Source: Sporosarcina sp. P33
GTDB lineage: Bacteria; Bacillota; Bacilli; Bacillales_A; Planococcaceae
DNA length: 64,000 nucleotides
Direction of reading: 5' to 3'
NCBI RefSeq assembly: GCF_002077155.1
Contig: NZ_CP015027.1
Location: 742,501 to 806,500 of the forward strand
Positions 11,600 to 63,850 of the stretch are shown one piece after another (the stretch's first letter is position 1; every line of letters begins with the position of its first letter). A program made the position numbers and the translations under genes. Below the pieces are notes generated by a model. It was not told the origin of the DNA and made no database searches. It worked only from the letters and a program-made list of their open reading frames with translations.

Positions 11600-11755
11600 G
11601 GGTTCGCTCATTAATTCGTATAAGCGCTCATAGTTCATGTGTAACCGCTCAATGTTCATCGCCAGCCGCCCTATCGCGATCCGTAACCGCTCACACTCTG
11701 CGCTGAAGCGCTCTATGACGAGCTGTAACCGCTCATTGCGTCATTGCGCGCTCCC
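11600..11755 (-). repeat. 21-bp periodic GAGCG repeat, locus 1
   Basis: On the minus strand GAGCG-like pentamers (CGCTC on plus) begin at 11605, 11625, 11646, 11667 (CGCCC), 11688, 11709 and 11730. The spacings are 20, 21, 21, 21, 21 and 21, with a last off-register copy near 11749. The 15-16 bases between motifs are not conserved. The surrounding intergenic stretch (11414-11969) contains nothing else recognisable apart from the flanking gene starts. The same motif and period occur at 52024-52665 and 63712-63850. Confidence 0.75.
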
Positions 11756-24315: not shown

Positions 24316-25710
24316 TCATGATAACACAGGCCGACGTCATTGTAATGATAGAAGCTAAACGGCATTGAACCCGCTGCGGCGCTGGCGGATGGCTTCCGTT
24401 TAGTGAGCGAATGTCGTTTAGGCTACTGATTTTTGAAATGTGACGGGCAAGTGCTGTGCGGATGTTTTTCTGCTTTTTGCATCGAAAACGTAATACACCA
24501 GTTGCCGTCATTGTTGTAAGAGAAGCAAGACGGCATCGAACTCACTACGGCGCTGGCGGATGGCTACGCAATGAGCCAGACAGAAAGACCGCCTGGCTGT
24601 CTCATCACTTCGCCGACCGCTTGTAAGGCGCCTCCGTTTAGTTAGGGGGAAGCAGAACATGACACGTCATTTTCTAAAGCATACGCCAGTCGGCAACAAG
24701 TCACTGCACTTCTTCTCTTTTAAAAGAGTACATGCACAGCCTCCACTCAGCAGCGCAGGCACAACTGCGGGGTCGGCCGAAGTCATGAGACAACTGGCGC
24801 GCCCTTTGCCAGCTGGCTCATGACGTAAGGCAATCCTCCACGTGCCTGCGCGGGTCCAAAGAGTAGACACTCGCTAACTCCAATCCCCGACAAAAAGTCG
24901 AGCTACGATCCCAAAACAGAGACAGAACGGCATTGAACCCACTGCGGCGCTGGCGGATGGCTACGCAATGAGCCAGACAGGAAGACCGCCTGGCTGTCTC
25001 ATCACTTCGCCAACCGCTTGTAAGGCGCCTCCGTTTAGTTAGGGGAAGCAGAACATGACACGTCATTTGCCAAAGCATACGCTAGTCGTCTACCAGTCAC
25101 TGCACCTCTTCCCTTTTAAAAATGTAACCTGACTTGCTCCCACTCAGCAGCGCAGGCACAACTGCGGGGTCGGCCGAAGTCATGAGACAACTGGCGCGTA
25201 CTTCGCCAGCTGGCTCATGACGAAAGGCAATCCCCCACGTGCCTGTGCGGGTCCAAACAGCGGACACTCGCTAACTTCAATCCCCGACAACGAGTCGAGC
25301 TACGATCCCAAAACAGAGACAGAACGGCATTGAACCCACTGCGGCGCTGGCGGATGGCTACGCAATGAGCCAGACAGGAAGTACACCTGGCTGTCTCATC
25401 ACTTCGCCGACCGCTTGGGAGGCGCCTCCGTTCAGTAAGGGGTAAGCAGAAGATGACACGTCTTTTGCCAATGCATACACCAGTCACCAAGCAGTCACGG
25501 AACTTCTTCTCTTTTAAACTACAACCTAGATTGCTTCCACTCAGCAGCGCAGGCACAACTGCGGGGTCAGCCGAAGTCATGAGACAACTGGCGGCGCACT
25601 ATCGCCAGCTGGCTCATGACGTAAGGCAATCCCCCACGTGCCTGCGCGGGTCCTAAACGCTGACACTCACTAATTACAAACCCCAACACCCAGTCGAGCT
25701 ACGACCCAGC
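24316..25710. repeat. Tandem array of ~396-bp noncoding units, each with two paired-arm elements
   Basis: Three near-full copies of one unit follow each other with period 397 and 396 bp (first landmark ACGGCAT at about 24530, 24927 and 25323), after a diverged half copy at 24316-24400. Element A of each unit pairs ATGAGCCAGACAGG with CCTGGCTGTCTCAT (imperfect). Element B (24750-24852, 25146-25247, 25544-25647) has outer arms GCGCAGGCAC/GTGCCTGCGC and inner arms GTCATGAGACAACTGGCG/CGCCAGCTGGCTCATGAC; copy 2 reads GTGCCTGTGC in its outer 3' arm. Open frames across the array are short, lack ribosome sites and shift between copies, so I treat it as noncoding. A terminator closes the array. Confidence 0.85.
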
Positions 25711-49686: not shown

Positions 49687-50466
49687 TTATGCTTCTTGTC
49701 CAACTGTCTCGTCTTCAATACCAAGCTCTTCTTTAATCCAGTCATATCCTTGGCTCTCAAGTTTCTCAGCCAATTCAGGTCCGCCAGTTTTGACGATTCT
49801 GCCCTGCATGATGATGTGCACGTGATCCGGCTTGATATAGTTCAACAAGCGCTGATAGTGAGTGATGATCAGGCAGCCGAAGCCTTCGCCGCGCATTTCA
49901 TTGATTCCTTTAGAAACAACTTTCAATGCATCGATATCCAGACCTGAGTCAATTTCGTCAAGTACTGCAAATTTTGGTTTCAACATCATAAGCTGAAGAA
50001 TTTCGTTGCGCTTTTTCTCTCCGCCTGAGAAACCTTCGTTCAAATAACGTGTTGCCATATCTTCATCCATTTCCAGGAACTCCATCTTGCTGTCCAGTTC
50101 ACGGATAAATTTCATCAAGGAAATTTCGTCGCCCTCTTCACGACGGGCATTCATTCCTGAACGCAGGAAATCTGCGTTTGTTACGCCAGTGATTTCACTT
50201 GGATACTGCATTGCAAGGAACAAACCAGCTTTCGCACGCTCATCCACTTCCATTGCCAGAACGTCTTCTCCATCAATTGTGATGCTTCCAGATGTAACTT
50301 CATATTTCGGGTGTCCCATAATTGCAGATGCAAGTGTGGATTTCCCCGTACCATTGGGACCCATGATTGCATGGATCTCATTTGTATTTATTGTTAAGGT
50401 AACACCCTTCAAGATTTCTTTGCCCTCAATTTGGACATGAAGATCTTTAATTTCCAAAGTTGCCAT
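49687..50466 (-). CDS. sufC: Fe-S cluster assembly ATPase SufC
   Basis: A 259-residue ABC-type ATPase. Walker A is G-P-N-G-T-G-K-S-T, the signature is F-S-G-G-E-K-K-R, and Walker B is F-A-V-L-D-E-I-D-S-G-L-D. It is the first gene of sufCDSUB. The ATG at 50466 follows GGAGG; the longer frame to 50571 has no ribosome site and is leader. A PerR/Fur-like sequence TTATAATGATTCTTA lies at 50576-50562 in the leader region. Confidence 0.95.
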   Translation of the reverse strand: MATLEIKDLHVQIEGKEILKGVTLTINTNEIHAIMGPNGTGKSTLASAIMGHPKYEVTSGSITIDGEDVLAMEVDERAKAGLFLAMQYPSEITGVTNADFLRSGMNARREEGDEISLMKFIRELDSKMEFLEMDEDMATRYLNEGFSGGEKKRNEILQLMMLKPKFAVLDEIDSGLDIDALKVVSKGINEMRGEGFGCLIITHYQRLLNYIKPDHVHIIMQGRIVKTGGPELAEKLESQGYDWIKEELGIEDETVGQEA

Positions 50467-50693
50467 TCCAATACCTCCAGTATGATCACTTGAATGGTTT
50501 ATCCATTCTCTATTTAGTATCATTCTAATCTTAACCCATATTTGATTCGGTTGCAAATGTTTAAGAATCATTATAAATTATAAGCAAATTCATTGATTCT
50601 ATGGGCCTCTATGAAATTTCACAGTTTATCATTTTTCAATTGACAACTAATGAATGAGAATCAACGAGAGATTAGTACATAAGAATTAGACAG

Positions 50694-50723
50694 AAAAAAG
50701 CCAGTCAAATGACCGGCTTTTTC
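50694..50723 (-). terminator. Terminator of the dicarboxylate symporter gene
   Basis: AAAAAGCCGGTCA pairs with TGACTGGCTTTTTT on the minus strand. Confidence 0.85.
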
Positions 50724-50729
50724 TCTGTA

Positions 50730-51911
50730 CTATGCTTTTTTTGTAAAACGGTCGACGATCATTGCAAGTGCGCCGTCGCCTGTAACATTTGTTGCTGTTC
50801 CGAAACTGTCCTGTGCCAGGTACAGCGCAATCATTAACGCCACCATAGCGTCAGTGAATCCAAGCATGGTGGAAAGAAGTCCAGTTGCCGCTACTACTGC
50901 ACCGCCCGGCACACCCGGGGCTGCAATCATCGTAACGCCCAGCATGAAAATAAATTGCAGATACATGCCAAAGCTAATGTCGAATCCATTCATCAGCATG
51001 ACGCCGATAGAGCAAGACACAATTGTGATCGTACTGCCTGACAAGTGAATAGTCGCAAACAGCGGCACCGCAAAATTTGTCACCCGTTCAGAAGCGCCGG
51101 TCTTTTTCGCCTGACGCAGTGTAACAGGAATCGTTGCGGCTGATGATTGCGTGCCGATTGCTGTTAAATAAGCAGGCAGCATCGTTTTCATCAGGACAAA
51201 CGGATTACGTTTATTCAATGTACCTGCCACTGTATACTGGAATGTCAGCATAATCAGATGAAGAATGATAATCATGATAAATACCAGGATAAATACAGAC
51301 AATACATTTGCCACTTCACCGGTATACGTCATATTTAAGAAAATCCCGAAGATATGAAACGGCAGCAGCGGAATGATTACGACAGAAATAACTTTATCGA
51401 TAATCAAGTTGAACTCTTCAAAGAATGACAGCATCGTCTTTCCCTTAATCGCCGCCATGCCAATTCCAAGCACGAATGCCATGAGCAGCGCCGTCATAAT
51501 TCCCATCATCGGCGCCATTTCCATCTCAAAGAAGGCTTCTCCGGCAGCACGTGCACCTTCCGCAATCTCTGCATCAGTGGATTGATGAATAAAATTAGGC
51601 AGAATAGTCGATGCCGCAGCATACGCGAGCAATCCTGCGGTAATGGTGGAGCCATAGGCAAACGCTGCAGACATTCCCAGCAGCTTCCCTGACCCCGCCC
51701 CGAGCTTCGCAATACTTGGCGCGATAAACGCAATAATGATGAGTGGCACAATAAAGTTCAAGAATCCGCCAAACAACATATTGAACGTGGCTGCTAATCG
51801 AACGAACCAGTTCGCGAAACCTTCATGAATCGCGGGCAGCAATAATCCAAGTCCGATCGCCAGCGCAATGGCTATCAAAATACGCCAAATAAGCCCTAGT
51901 TTAAACTTCAC
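50730..51911 (-). CDS. Dicarboxylate/amino acid:cation symporter (DAACS family)
   Basis: 393 residues with about eight membrane helices and two re-entrant hairpins. The serine-rich hairpin (T-Q-S-S-A-A-T-I-P-V-T), the P-G-V-P-G-G-A hairpin tip and the N-V-T-G-D-G-A substrate block near the C-terminus fit this family. It takes up glutamate, serine/threonine or dicarboxylates with Na+ or H+; which one is not clear. The start is GTG behind GAGGAGG. Confidence 0.87.
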   Translation of the reverse strand: MKFKLGLIWRILIAIALAIGLGLLLPAIHEGFANWFVRLAATFNMLFGGFLNFIVPLIIIAFIAPSIAKLGAGSGKLLGMSAAFAYGSTITAGLLAYAAASTILPNFIHQSTDAEIAEGARAAGEAFFEMEMAPMMGIMTALLMAFVLGIGMAAIKGKTMLSFFEEFNLIIDKVISVVIIPLLPFHIFGIFLNMTYTGEVANVLSVFILVFIMIIILHLIMLTFQYTVAGTLNKRNPFVLMKTMLPAYLTAIGTQSSAATIPVTLRQAKKTGASERVTNFAVPLFATIHLSGSTITIVSCSIGVMLMNGFDISFGMYLQFIFMLGVTMIAAPGVPGGAVVAATGLLSTMLGFTDAMVALMIALYLAQDSFGTATNVTGDGALAMIVDRFTKKA

Positions 51912-52023
51912 AATACGTCCTCCTCAAATACACATATGTATGACTGAAACAACACAACTTTACCACAAGAGCGGGGAATAGAGAAGAAAATATTTTAGTT
52001 TATTTAGTGTCTTTGCTGCGGGG

Positions 52024-52665
52024 ATGAGCGGGTGGCGGGCGGCTATGAGCGGACGCGATGCGGCATTGAGCGCGTGGCGGGCGGCTAAGAGCGGGTGTGA
52101 AGACGCATTGAGCGCGTGGACGGCGGCTATGAGCGGGTGTGAAGCCGCATTGAGCGCGTGGCGGGCAGCTATGAGCGGACGCGATGACGCATTGAGCGCG
52201 TGGACGGTGGCTATGAGCTGAGGCGAAGTGGCATTGAGCGCGTGGCGAACTGCTAAGAGCGGATGCGATGCCGCATTGAGCGCGTGGACGGCGGCTATGA
52301 GCGGATACGAAGTCGCATTGAGCGCGTGGACGGCGGCTATGAGCGGGTGTGAAGCCGCATTGAGCGCGTGGCGGGTAGCTATGAGCGGACGCGAAGACGC
52401 ATTGAGCACGTGGACGGTGGCTATGAGCGGACGCGATGCCGCGTTGAGCGCGTGGACGGCGGCTATGAGCGGATACGATGCCGCGTTGAGCGCGTGGACG
52501 GCGGCTATGAGCGGATACGAAGACGCATTGAGCGCGTGGACGGCGGTTATGAGCGGGTGTGAAGCCGCATTGAGCGCGTGGCGGGCAGCTATGAGCGGAC
52601 GCGATGACGCATTGAGCGCGTGGACGGCAGCTATGAGCGGATACACAGCAACTATGAGCGCGTAA
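52024..52665 (+). repeat. 21/42-bp periodic TGAGCG repeat array, locus 2
   Basis: About 31 consecutive 21-bp units, alternating ATGAGCGG-type and TTGAGCGCG-type, make about fifteen 42-bp units. Every unit keeps GAGCG (one GAGCT at 52213, one GAGCA at 52404) and is otherwise variable. The period is a multiple of three, so long frames are open on both strands (14-residue repeats such as A-L-S-A-W-T-A-A-M-S-G), but none has a credible ribosome site and I do not call a gene. It sits in the intergenic region 51912-52732 between the symporter and metQ. Confidence 0.9.
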
Positions 52666-52693
52666 CACCATATATGAACTCTATTTCCAATAT

Positions 52694-52723
52694 AAAAACC
52701 GGCAGCTGCTCCAGCTGCCGGCC
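52694..52723 (-). terminator. Terminator of the metNPQ operon
   Basis: CCGGCAGCTG pairs with CAGCTGCCGG, followed by TTTTTATA on the minus strand. Confidence 0.85.
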
Positions 52724-52732
52724 TTCTATTCA

Positions 52733-53587
52733 TTATTTTACTGGAACTACTGATCCAGACCATTCTTCTACGATGAAATCTTGGATTTGTTCTGAAGTTA
52801 ACACTTCTATCAATGCTTTGATTGCGTCGCTGTCTTCGTTACCGCTCTTTACAGCGATTACGTTAACGTAAGGAGACTCTGAATCTTCCAAAGCGATCGC
52901 ATCTTCCATTGGATTTAAGCCGGCGTCGATTGCGAAGTTTGAGTTGATCAATAATGCGTCGCCTTCATCATTTTTGTACAATTGCGGCATTAATGCTGCT
53001 TCGTAGTTTGCGTCAAACTCCAAGTTCTTCGGATTTTCAACGATATCTTCTACTTCCGCCTTCACTTTTTCCACATCGTCAGCAAGCTTGATCAAACCTT
53101 TTTCTTCAAGCATAGCCAGTACGCGCCCGTGATCCGCTACAGAGTTACTGATTAAGATCGTTGCACCATCAGGAAGTTCTTCCAATGAATCATATTTCTT
53201 TGAGTAGACACCGATCGGCTCGATGTGAATTGCACCTGCATTGACAAAATCATAACCGAAATCTGCAATTTGACTCTCTAGATATGGAATGTGCTGGAAA
53301 TAGTTCGCATCCAATGTGCCTTCATCCAAATCTTTGTTTGGCAGTACATAATCTGTGTAGCTCTCAATCTTCAAATCGTACCCTTTTTCAGCCAATAGTG
53401 GCTTCGCCTTTTCTAAAATTACTGCGTGCGGCGTGTTGGACGCTCCGACTGTCAAAGTCGTTTTGTCGCCCTTTTCTGCGTCATCTGCATCCTGTGCCGC
53501 ATCTTTGCTGTTATCATCTTTTGTGCCGCATGCTGCCAGTGCCAGCACAAGTGCCGCCGCGAATAGACCAAATAAAAACTTCTTCAT
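52733..53587 (-). CDS. metQ: Methionine ABC transporter substrate-binding lipoprotein
   Basis: About 284 residues. A signal peptide ends at the lipobox L-A-A-C (Cys about 19), followed by an NlpA/MetQ domain with the G-A-S-N-T-P-H start and the N-Y-F-Q-H motif. It is anchored outside the membrane and binds methionine. It is the last gene of metNPQ. The ATG at 53587 is preferred to the GTG at 53593. Confidence 0.92.
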   Translation of the reverse strand: MKKFLFGLFAAALVLALAACGTKDDNSKDAAQDADDAEKGDKTTLTVGASNTPHAVILEKAKPLLAEKGYDLKIESYTDYVLPNKDLDEGTLDANYFQHIPYLESQIADFGYDFVNAGAIHIEPIGVYSKKYDSLEELPDGATILISNSVADHGRVLAMLEEKGLIKLADDVEKVKAEVEDIVENPKNLEFDANYEAALMPQLYKNDEGDALLINSNFAIDAGLNPMEDAIALEDSESPYVNVIAVKSGNEDSDAIKALIEVLTSEQIQDFIVEEWSGSVVPVK

Positions 53588-53653
53588 CTTCACATTTCTC
53601 CCTCTCCATTACTGGATTATATTTATGGTTGACAGGTTTCCCTGAAAATCCTG

Positions 53654-54322
53654 TTATCGCTTGTCCATACGTTTTACAAAGAAATCACCGATAAACTGAA
53701 TGATGAATACGATGATCAAAACTAAAATTGTCGCCATCATCGTCACATCGCCGCGGTTACGCTGGAACCCTTCCAAATACGCAAGTGTACCGAGTCCCCC
53801 GGCGCCGATTACCCCTGCCATCGCTGTATATCCGACCAGCGCAATTGACGTCACTGTAATCCCAGACACTAGCGCGGGCATGGATTCAGGCAACAGCACT
53901 TTGAAAATGATGGTAGAAGTTTTCGCACCCATTGAACGTGCCGCTTCGATAACTCCTTTATCAATTTCTTGCAGCGCAATCAGCACCATGCGTCCGTAGA
54001 ACGGTGCTGCGCCGATAATTAACGCTGGCAACGCGGCATTCGGTCCGCGCATACTTCCAATAAGCAAATTAGTCAGAGGCAGCAATAAAATAATCAAAAT
54101 GATAAACGGAATGGACCGGAACACATTGACAAATGCCCCTGTAAAGACATTGGTGATTTTATTGGCCCAGAGTTGCCCCGGACTTGTCAGGAATAGCAGC
54201 AAACCGAGTGCGACACCAAAAATAAACGTGAATAACGTGGAGTACGCGGACATATAAAGTGTCTCTCCCGTCGCCGCCCACATTTTCTCCCAATTGACGT
54301 TCGGGAACCACTGCTCAATCAT
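53654..54322 (-). CDS. metP: Methionine ABC transporter permease
   Basis: 222 residues with five membrane helices and the ABC-coupling motif E-A-A-R-S-M-G-A-K-T. It is the MetI/MetP-type channel for methionine. It overlaps metN by eight bases. Confidence 0.92.
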   Translation of the reverse strand: MIEQWFPNVNWEKMWAATGETLYMSAYSTLFTFIFGVALGLLLFLTSPGQLWANKITNVFTGAFVNVFRSIPFIILIILLLPLTNLLIGSMRGPNAALPALIIGAAPFYGRMVLIALQEIDKGVIEAARSMGAKTSTIIFKVLLPESMPALVSGITVTSIALVGYTAMAGVIGAGGLGTLAYLEGFQRNRGDVTMMATILVLIIVFIIQFIGDFFVKRMDKR

Positions 54323-55340
54323 TCTTCAGCACCTCCGTCTTCACTTCATTGGCATCTAAGAAAGCGATCGCTTCATCAACAACCGCCGCGTCCCCTGCCA
54401 GCTGCAAGACCAGTGTGCCGTACGCGCCGTCCCGTGTAGTCGAGATATTTCCCTGGACGATATTGACCTCAATCGGGTATTTCCGGATCAGCTCAGCAAG
54501 GACAGGCTGCTCTGTACGCTCCCCGATGAAGGCTAGCTTAATCAGCTTTCCGTGTGGAGTTTCCTCCTGCAGGTGTGCGATCGCTGCGTCTGTATCGCCA
54601 GTGTCGGTCACCTGTGAAATAAAACGCTTTGTAATGTCAGCCTGCGGAGATTGAAAGACGTCGAGCACGTTGCCGATCTCCACGACCTTCCCTGCTTCCA
54701 TGACTGCTACACGATGGCAAATCTTACGGATAACATGCATTTCATGCGTGATAAGGACAATAGTCAGTCCAAGACGTTCATTGATGTCTGTCAATAAATC
54801 GAGGATTGCATTTGTCGTTTCAGGATCAAGCGCGGATGTCGCTTCATCACAAAGCAGTACTTCCGGGTCATTCGCAAGTGCGCGCGCGATGCCGACACGT
54901 TGTTTTTGACCGCCTGATAACTGTGCGGGATAAGCTTTTTCACGGCCAGTCAACCCGACCAGATCTATCAGTTCTTTTACTTTTTGCTTGCGAACCGATT
55001 TTTTCACACCCGCAATTTCGAGCGGGAACATAATATTCTCTTCCACGGTTCTTGACCACAGCAAGTTAAAGTGCTGGAAGATCATACTGATTTTCTGACG
55101 GGCATTGCGAAGACCGGCTCCTTTTAATGTCGTCATTTCCTGTCCGTGAATCATAATGCTGCCGGACGTGGGTGTTTCAAGACCATTCAGCAGCCGAATC
55201 AAAGTACTTTTTCCTGCACCACTGTAACCGATGACGCCGAAAATTTCTCCTTCTTTGATGGTTAGCGATACATCATCTACCGCGATTATTTCTGAACGGT
55301 TCAAATGGAATTTTTTATGAACGTTTGTTAGTTGAATCAT
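54315..55340 (-). CDS. metN: Methionine ABC transporter ATP-binding protein
   Basis: 341 residues. Walker A is G-Y-S-G-A-G-K-S-T, the signature is L-S-G-G-Q-K-Q-R, and Walker B is V-L-L-C-D-E-A-T-S-A-L-D. A C-terminal NIL domain (about 265-341) gives inhibition by internal methionine. It is the first gene after the SAM riboswitch. The ATG at 55340 follows GAGGTGG; upstream GTGs are part of that site. Confidence 0.93.
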   Translation of the reverse strand: MIQLTNVHKKFHLNRSEIIAVDDVSLTIKEGEIFGVIGYSGAGKSTLIRLLNGLETPTSGSIMIHGQEMTTLKGAGLRNARQKISMIFQHFNLLWSRTVEENIMFPLEIAGVKKSVRKQKVKELIDLVGLTGREKAYPAQLSGGQKQRVGIARALANDPEVLLCDEATSALDPETTNAILDLLTDINERLGLTIVLITHEMHVIRKICHRVAVMEAGKVVEIGNVLDVFQSPQADITKRFISQVTDTGDTDAAIAHLQEETPHGKLIKLAFIGERTEQPVLAELIRKYPIEVNIVQGNISTTRDGAYGTLVLQLAGDAAVVDEAIAFLDANEVKTEVLKND

Positions 55341-63711: not shown

Positions 63712-63850
63712 TGTTATGAGCGCTTGACTTTTGACATTGAGCGCGCCGCTTGATGTTATGAGCGGCTAACCGATAACATTAAGCGCTGGCCGGGATGTAT
63801 GAGCGCCCAGCCGGCAACATTGAGCGCCTGCCGTTGTTTTATGTGCGCCC
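63712..63850 (+). repeat. 21-bp periodic TGAGCG repeat, locus 3
   Basis: GAGCG-like pentamers begin at 63718, 63739, 63760, 63781 (AAGCG), 63801, 63822 and 63843 (GTGCG), spacings 21, 21, 21, 20, 21, 21. A degenerate copy (GATCG, 63697) is also in register. The sequences between are unrelated to one another and to locus 2. No coding frame is plausible. Confidence 0.75.

Follow-up and report, generated by a model that had tools for sequence, protein, structure and literature searches.

Fork-oriented arrays of 21-bp units between genes in Sporosarcina: putative protein-binding sites that may act as polar barriers

The Sal-box/TTF-I and Fob1 barriers of eukaryotes lie at rDNA ends, and REP/BIME elements are extragenic palindromic repeats found in many copies, often at 3' ends. 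Chi, KOPS and SRS are short, asymmetric, replication-oriented motifs that are dispersed as single sites; Chi of B. subtilis is AGCGG, the SRS motif is GAGAAGGG, and the known segregation guide motifs are likewise short single sites. A minisatellite reportedly lies inside a MITE of Porphyromonas gingivalis. Ter sites are single sites of 23 bp (Tus) or 32 bp (RTP) (PMC13220808). Here we describe arrays of 21-bp units in Sporosarcina; no description of such arrays was found in Rfam or in the titles and abstract beginnings of the papers listed by literature searches aimed at them.

The stretch of DNA that was analysed (the window) comprises 64,000 nucleotides of the chromosome of Sporosarcina sp. 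P33 (3,235,441 bp; genome G000 below). It holds one long array and two short ones, and the features needed here are the following:

52024..52665, minus strand: 21-bp array of 31 units, core CGCTC on the minus strand (GAGCG on the plus strand), two unit types alternating
52733..53593, minus strand: metQ-like NlpA lipoprotein gene (Pfam PF03180, E 9.9e-83), 5' of the array in the CGCTC orientation
52697..52721, minus strand: terminator-like hairpin of metQ, a stem-loop and T tract; a T-tract hairpin follows metQ in relatives too
50730..51911, minus strand: sodium:dicarboxylate symporter gene (Pfam PF00375, E 3.8e-89), 3' of the array
51964..52023, minus strand: 3' flank of the array; a statistical feature over loci, 60-bp 3' flanks being on average A/C-rich on the CGCTC strand
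11605..11734, plus strand: short array of 6 exact cores whose first unit is AT-rich and 20 bp long; it lies between divergent genes and opposes the fork
63718..63826, minus strand: short array of 5 exact cores between two plus-strand (lagging-strand) genes, with the fork

An earlier note on the window had counted about 31 GAGCG units at 21-bp steps, and this count was borne out: 31 steps are in phase at 52026-52660 and 29 of them carry GAGCG exactly, while 52215 has GAGCT and 52404 has GAGCA. All 29 exact copies within 52024-52665 fall in the single 21-bp phase that starts at 52026, whereas 500 shuffles of the bases of the array gave at most 3 in phase. The note had also proposed growth by 42-bp duplication, with which the analysis agrees. 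The two unit types do alternate, as growth by 42-bp steps would produce: identity averages 83% between units two apart and 52% between adjacent ones. TRF reports a period of 42 with 14.7 copies, and the longest exact repeat is 80 bp (at 52128 and 52548). The first core lies about 35 bp past the terminator-like hairpin of metQ. The long array is orthologous to one at 919645 in G018, and the short array at 11605..11734 has orthologues at 879991 in G018 and 929771 in G030. Elsewhere in the window, at 24530-25708, a 397-bp unit stands in three tandem copies that match at 89%.

The GAGCG periodicity, looked for in relatives, recurs as phase-locked homologues at other loci and in other species. Three cores at exact 21-bp steps were found at 494 places in the P33 chromosome, against 0 for a reversed control pattern, and the stretches fetched from it hold at least 35 arrays with four or more exact cores. 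The triple-core pattern is present in 47 of 68 Sporosarcina genomes, P33 included, with a maximum of 535 matches per genome (0 to 26 for the reversed control), and the CGCTC triple was not found in the other 21. Outside the genus, 5 of 53 genomes have 1 to 5 matches each, and the viral contigs scanned have mostly one match per contig among the matches listed. Relatives for the array counts were picked as single-contig genomes having matches, and the counts take in only chains of at least four exact CGCTC cores and thus miss other cores; the arrays of G018 are drawn from among the matches listed (86 in all), and the regions fetched from G049 cover 12 of its 16 matches, the other four all lying with the fork by position. 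Of the 80 named metQ loci that were compared, from Bacillales and relatives, eight have an identity of at least 0.55 at a lag of 21 bp: three in Sporosarcina, two in Psychrobacillus and one each in Lysinibacillus, Jeotgalibacillus and Bacillus sp. FJAT-22090. Several of these eight have cores that are indistinct or other than CGCTC; if they are homologous, the period has been kept while the core drifted between lineages. A repeat family with a 52-bp lag was also observed near metQ in Neobacillus, Bacillus, Peribacillus and relatives, with identities of 0.68-0.98 at seven of the 80 loci (L087, L092, L094, L100, L110, L116 and L122) and 0.56 at two more.

Most cores are 21 bp apart: seven genomes have 2554 spacings in the range 18-24 bp, of which 2392 measure 21 bp, 132 measure 20 bp and 11 measure 22 bp, and the 20-bp spacing accounts for 39 of 193 first spacings compared with 93 of 2361 later ones. 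The first 20-bp unit is AT-rich, near CGCTCATTAATTCGTATAAG. Arrays of the P33 genome have in common the motif [C/T]AA[C/G]CGCTCA[T/A][A/T], with little information elsewhere in the unit, and array sizes range from 4 to 68 cores chromosome-wide. Some short arrays share an ordered head and might be dispersed copies of one ancestral element, but orthologous loci account for at least part of them.

Mapped against gene ends and against origin and terminus, the arrays lie between called genes and are mostly oriented with the fork. In the P33 genome the location between genes is partly built in, since the gene-calling scripts omit open reading frames within arrays. At rRNA operons, four arrays begin about 65 bp past the 5S gene (P33 has eight 5S genes). 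The other array neighbours, as judged by Pfam for 30 proteins, are ordinary genes, for example those for the ribonucleotide reductase small chain, SHMT, leucyl- and tyrosyl-tRNA synthetases and a Fur-family protein. Of 116 array loci, 53 have a terminator-like hairpin upstream on the strand of the array and 33 have one on the opposite strand, a modest excess. In G045, insertion-sequence-like genes were seen inside or beside 21-bp arrays at loci L134, L137, L146 and L154, as if arrays were favoured targets. Among these genes are a 390-aa ORF that occurs four times with an identical beginning and an IS66-like set, identified by eye.

Fork direction was assigned by placing the origin at dnaA and the terminus at its antipode. 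The leading strand carries CGCTC at 80 loci and the lagging strand at 20, with one tie (101 loci in seven single-contig genomes, orthologues and insertion-split arrays merged; p 1.1e-9); before split arrays were merged the counts were 93:22:1. The arrays with the fork number 31 of 35 in P33, 37 of 38 in G045, 5 of 5 in G054 and 7 of 9 in G061; the polarity is moderate in G030 (32 of 43) and in G018 (29 of 38 among the matches listed) and weak in G049 (9 of 14). Since CGCTC outside arrays is commoner on the lagging strand (1061, against 806 leading, in 1.35 Mb of fetched stretches), the bias does not come from background skew. Gene direction as its cause is opposed by convergent pairs, where 34 loci are with the fork and 6 against, and by lagging-strand codirectional pairs (7:2, a class that still includes insertion-sequence neighbours), few of which are clean. 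By eye, the clean ones with the fork are G045 324149, 3097104 and 2751519, G049 181801 and G000 806218. One clean case is against it, G030 2180145, where the array follows its genes; G049 3059122, whose neighbours are uncertain, is against it as well. Leading-strand codirectional loci divide 30:7 with the one tie, divergent loci 2:4 and unassigned loci 7:1, and all eight 5S genes of P33 are directed along the assumed forks. Arrays against the fork have a median of 7 units (n=33) and those with it 15 (n=160; p 4e-4), and one chromosome arm holds more arrays. The earlier note had ventured a nucleoid or replication element: the orientation does follow replication, and a nucleoid role is one of several possibilities.

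Many arrays also keep their place and orientation between species. Of the array pairs in which both 2.5-kb flanks match between species, 129 have the same orientation and 6 are flipped, and flipped orthologous arrays are a natural inversion test. In one intergenic spot, the arrays at G018 2498793 and G030 2408804 are flipped relative to those at G000 2324203 and G054 1466166. The gap-free filter of a unit-by-unit test kept 2 of the 129 orthologous pairs, both between G018 and G030, with identities of 0.70 and 0.78 in register and 0.29-0.47 when shifted. In their 13 units, none of the 65 core sites differed, against 50 of 130 spacer sites (positions 8-17); fourfold sites of metQ changed at 31 of 105 between these genomes, which places the spacer at or above the synonymous rate. 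A gap-free stretch of the metQ arrays of G061 and G043 has no core change and about ten spacer changes, with 10 of 114 fourfold sites changed. A broader profile over 29 pairs (0.025 of core and 0.488 of spacer positions changed) points the same way, with a bias that comes from the aligner taking its register from the cores.

At the metQ locus itself, 30 loci were kept as the best MetQ matches of 68 genomes. An array is present in 11 of them: nine reach a lag-21 identity of 0.5 or more, and those of G024 and G055 were recognised by reading the sequence. G056 and G047 have 2-3 units; in the remaining 17, whose first 150 bp were read, the lag-21 identity peaks at 0.36-0.46, much as it does at other lags. 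Directly after the metQ terminator of G048 and G028 comes the leader of the next gene. Most metQ loci are thus without an array, and together with the 21 congeners that lack the CGCTC triple this indicates that arrays are dispensable or are replaced by others. Their intergenic place, their mostly replication-directed orientation and a core that is kept while the rest of the repeat drifts make it probable that the arrays have some function.

Asymmetric, near-invariant, phased sites that are kept in place and run mostly one way per arm are best explained by a bound protein. Our main reading, to which we give a probability of roughly 0.35, is that these are helically phased, putative protein-binding arrays at gene ends that act as polar barriers or insulators. 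Each array would be a row of recognition sites with the core CGCTCA[T/A][A/T], one per two helical turns. A protein occupying the sites along one face of the helix could form a polar roadblock. At gene or operon ends it would insulate the adjacent transcription units, its orientation letting through forks that come from the origin and stopping wrong-way forks or transcription complexes; long arrays would lengthen through tandem duplication of one or two units. A roadblock that normal forks can pass is favoured by the position at gene ends and by an orientation that follows the fork and not the genes, and one prevailing orientation per arm is the layout that polar fork-barrier sites would have if they formed an extended set. 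Beyond sites under constraint and oriented with replication, every step is one that we infer. The protein-binding array proposed in the earlier note has partial support, from its phase-locked homologues and, where testable, from a core that evolves much more slowly than the spacer; the binding protein is putative. A bolder form of the barrier, in which phased protein arrays at gene ends, rRNA operons included, are inherited in place as genome-wide one-way gates that let forks pass from origin to terminus only, is more doubtful.

Several results weigh against a polar barrier. The wrong orientation is found at 20 of the 101 loci, divergent pairs divide 2:4, and G049 shows a weak polarity (9:5), G018 and G030 a moderate one (29:9 among the matches listed, and 32:11). 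In addition, arrays are dispensable or replaced in relatives and more numerous in one arm, the unit-by-unit test of constraint covers 13 units in 2 of the 129 orthologous pairs, and a compositional skew of the flanks, described below, is left unexplained by a barrier. The terminus adds a further exception. The gene rtp lies close to the antipode of dnaA in P33 (PF02334 match at 174113, E 1.3e-38), G018, G030 and G061; the RTP match exceeds the cut-off in 9 of the 68 Sporosarcina genomes, a single clade nearest the window by MetQ that includes G018 (197744) and G030 (206808), and no match over the cut-off was found in the other 59. The nearest arrays flanking rtp face each other in G018, G019, G024 and G001, as would be predicted for a place where forks meet, which as one case, the loci being related by descent, lends weak support. 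In G061 both arrays around rtp are on the same strand, and in G018 and G030 a further array beyond the rtp pair has the opposite orientation, breaking the facing pattern in all three. The arrays were rejected as RTP-Ter sites: in the 7 genomes read, the 260 bp upstream of rtp contain neither CGCTC nor GAGCG, and arrays are present in G049 and G054, which have no RTP match (that of G045 is below the cut-off). A different motif, TGGTTCCAA[A/T]TAATCC, is conserved upstream of rtp in these 7 genomes and may be the ter site of rtp.

A replication-dependent minisatellite is an unlikely alternative to the barrier, if the least unlikely one. Arrays would expand by slippage mainly where the CGCTC strand is the lagging template and survive between genes with no function, which suits the 42-bp alternation, the greater length of with-fork arrays, and the presence, absence and 2-3-unit forms at metQ. 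Tandem duplication of a short unit is indeed seen, but the unit is not free of constraint (0 of 65 against 50 of 130), and this contrast, the recurrence of one core at unrelated loci, the near absence of 22-bp spacings beside those of 21 and 20 bp, and conservation in place are all unaccounted for. We consider it less likely again that the arrays guide segregation or loop extrusion, a DNA motor (SpoIIIE/SftA or SMC) reading their polarity for direction or unloading. One prevailing orientation per arm and a strongly asymmetric core would be expected of such a guide; the arrays, however, are tandem, sit at gene ends and are denser in one arm, whereas known guides are single, and the SRS motif GAGAAGGG is unrelated to the core. 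An identity with KOPS or SRS was rejected on the same tandem arrangement and unrelated octamer.

The flanks bear on two further alternatives. On the CGCTC strand, an array is on average preceded by 60 bp rich in G/T and followed by 60 bp rich in A/C: over 99 loci the keto skew is +0.18 on the 5' side (positive at 77) and -0.24 on the 3' side (negative at 85), while it is near 0 in 227 control intergenic regions (126 codirectional, 70 divergent and 31 convergent). The skew has the same sign across gene classes, being weakest at lagging-strand codirectional genes (0.08 and -0.13, n=11), fades within 90 bp of the array, and is symmetric under reverse complement in the arrays of the seven genomes. 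Bidirectional Rho termination, with the A/C-rich flanks as rut sites for RNA crossing the array from either side, would draw on this skew and on the position after genes. It is improbable, given an orientation that follows the fork even at convergent pairs, G045 arrays that are not C-rich on the CGCTC strand, and a 21-bp phased core for which Rho has no need. A recombination or break hotspot, in which the core is Chi-like or a nuclease site and the skew reflects deamination of exposed 3' strands, is slightly more improbable. Symmetry under reverse complement is what would be expected around breaks, but the skew fades within 90 bp, and AGCGG is biased to the leading strand outside arrays (1716 leading, 1193 lagging), matches the lagging strand in arrays, and is not at the core in 8 G054 matches; this reversal also led us to reject identity with Chi.

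Other identities were set aside more readily. REP/BIME-like RNA or DNA hairpins were rejected, as 12 arrays showed no excess folding under RNA parameters (mean z, one value per strand: +0.58 and +0.21 relative to mononucleotide shuffles, -0.22 and -1.00 relative to block shuffles), and Rfam at its gathering threshold gave no match in 50000-55000. The earlier note was right to discount both a CRISPR and a coding array. The array is without long identical repeats, only a 5-8 bp core is constant, and the spacers are duplicated in tandem. A 7-residue repeat protein or small ORF family is scarcely credible: two minus frames are open across the array and an ORF there matches Pfam MDD_C above the cut-off (27.7 vs 23.2 bits), but the two frames are open simultaneously, other loci have 20-bp units that would throw the reading out of frame, the match looks like low-complexity chance, and CGCTCATAG, a stop in that frame, occurs in many G045 units.

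If the barrier reading is true, many Sporosarcina chromosomes hold dozens of selected, directional extragenic DNA elements, and the arrays offer a direct test of how transcription units are separated and replication kept one-way in bacteria, for which the many natural copies, flipped ones included, are a ready experiment. Even if the barrier fails, 21-bp phasing and a near-invariant core across species are a strong clue to a new DNA-binding factor.

In comparison with known systems, the arrays resemble the Tus/RTP Ter sites in being asymmetric and opposite in the two chromosome arms (a bias of 80:20:1, not a rule) and in that the species of the window has an RTP gene; Ter sites, however, are single, whereas these are arrays of 4-68 cores found chromosome-wide, with a core that is not in the 260 bp upstream of rtp, and they also occur in genomes with no RTP match. 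Like the Sal-box/TTF-I and Fob1 barriers they are repeated asymmetric sites just past rRNA transcription units, although those systems are eukaryotic, most arrays here follow ordinary genes, and the barrier is putative. They share with REP/BIME elements their many intergenic copies, often 3' of genes, but differ in lacking excess folding, in fork polarity and in a fixed 21-bp period. Chi, KOPS and SRS are also short asymmetric motifs oriented along replication, yet they have other sequences and are dispersed singly, and the AGCGG match in arrays is reversed relative to AGCGG elsewhere. Finally, bacterial minisatellites likewise consist of tandem units between genes, whereas here the core is constrained where tested, and the arrays occupy many loci and keep their place and fork orientation.
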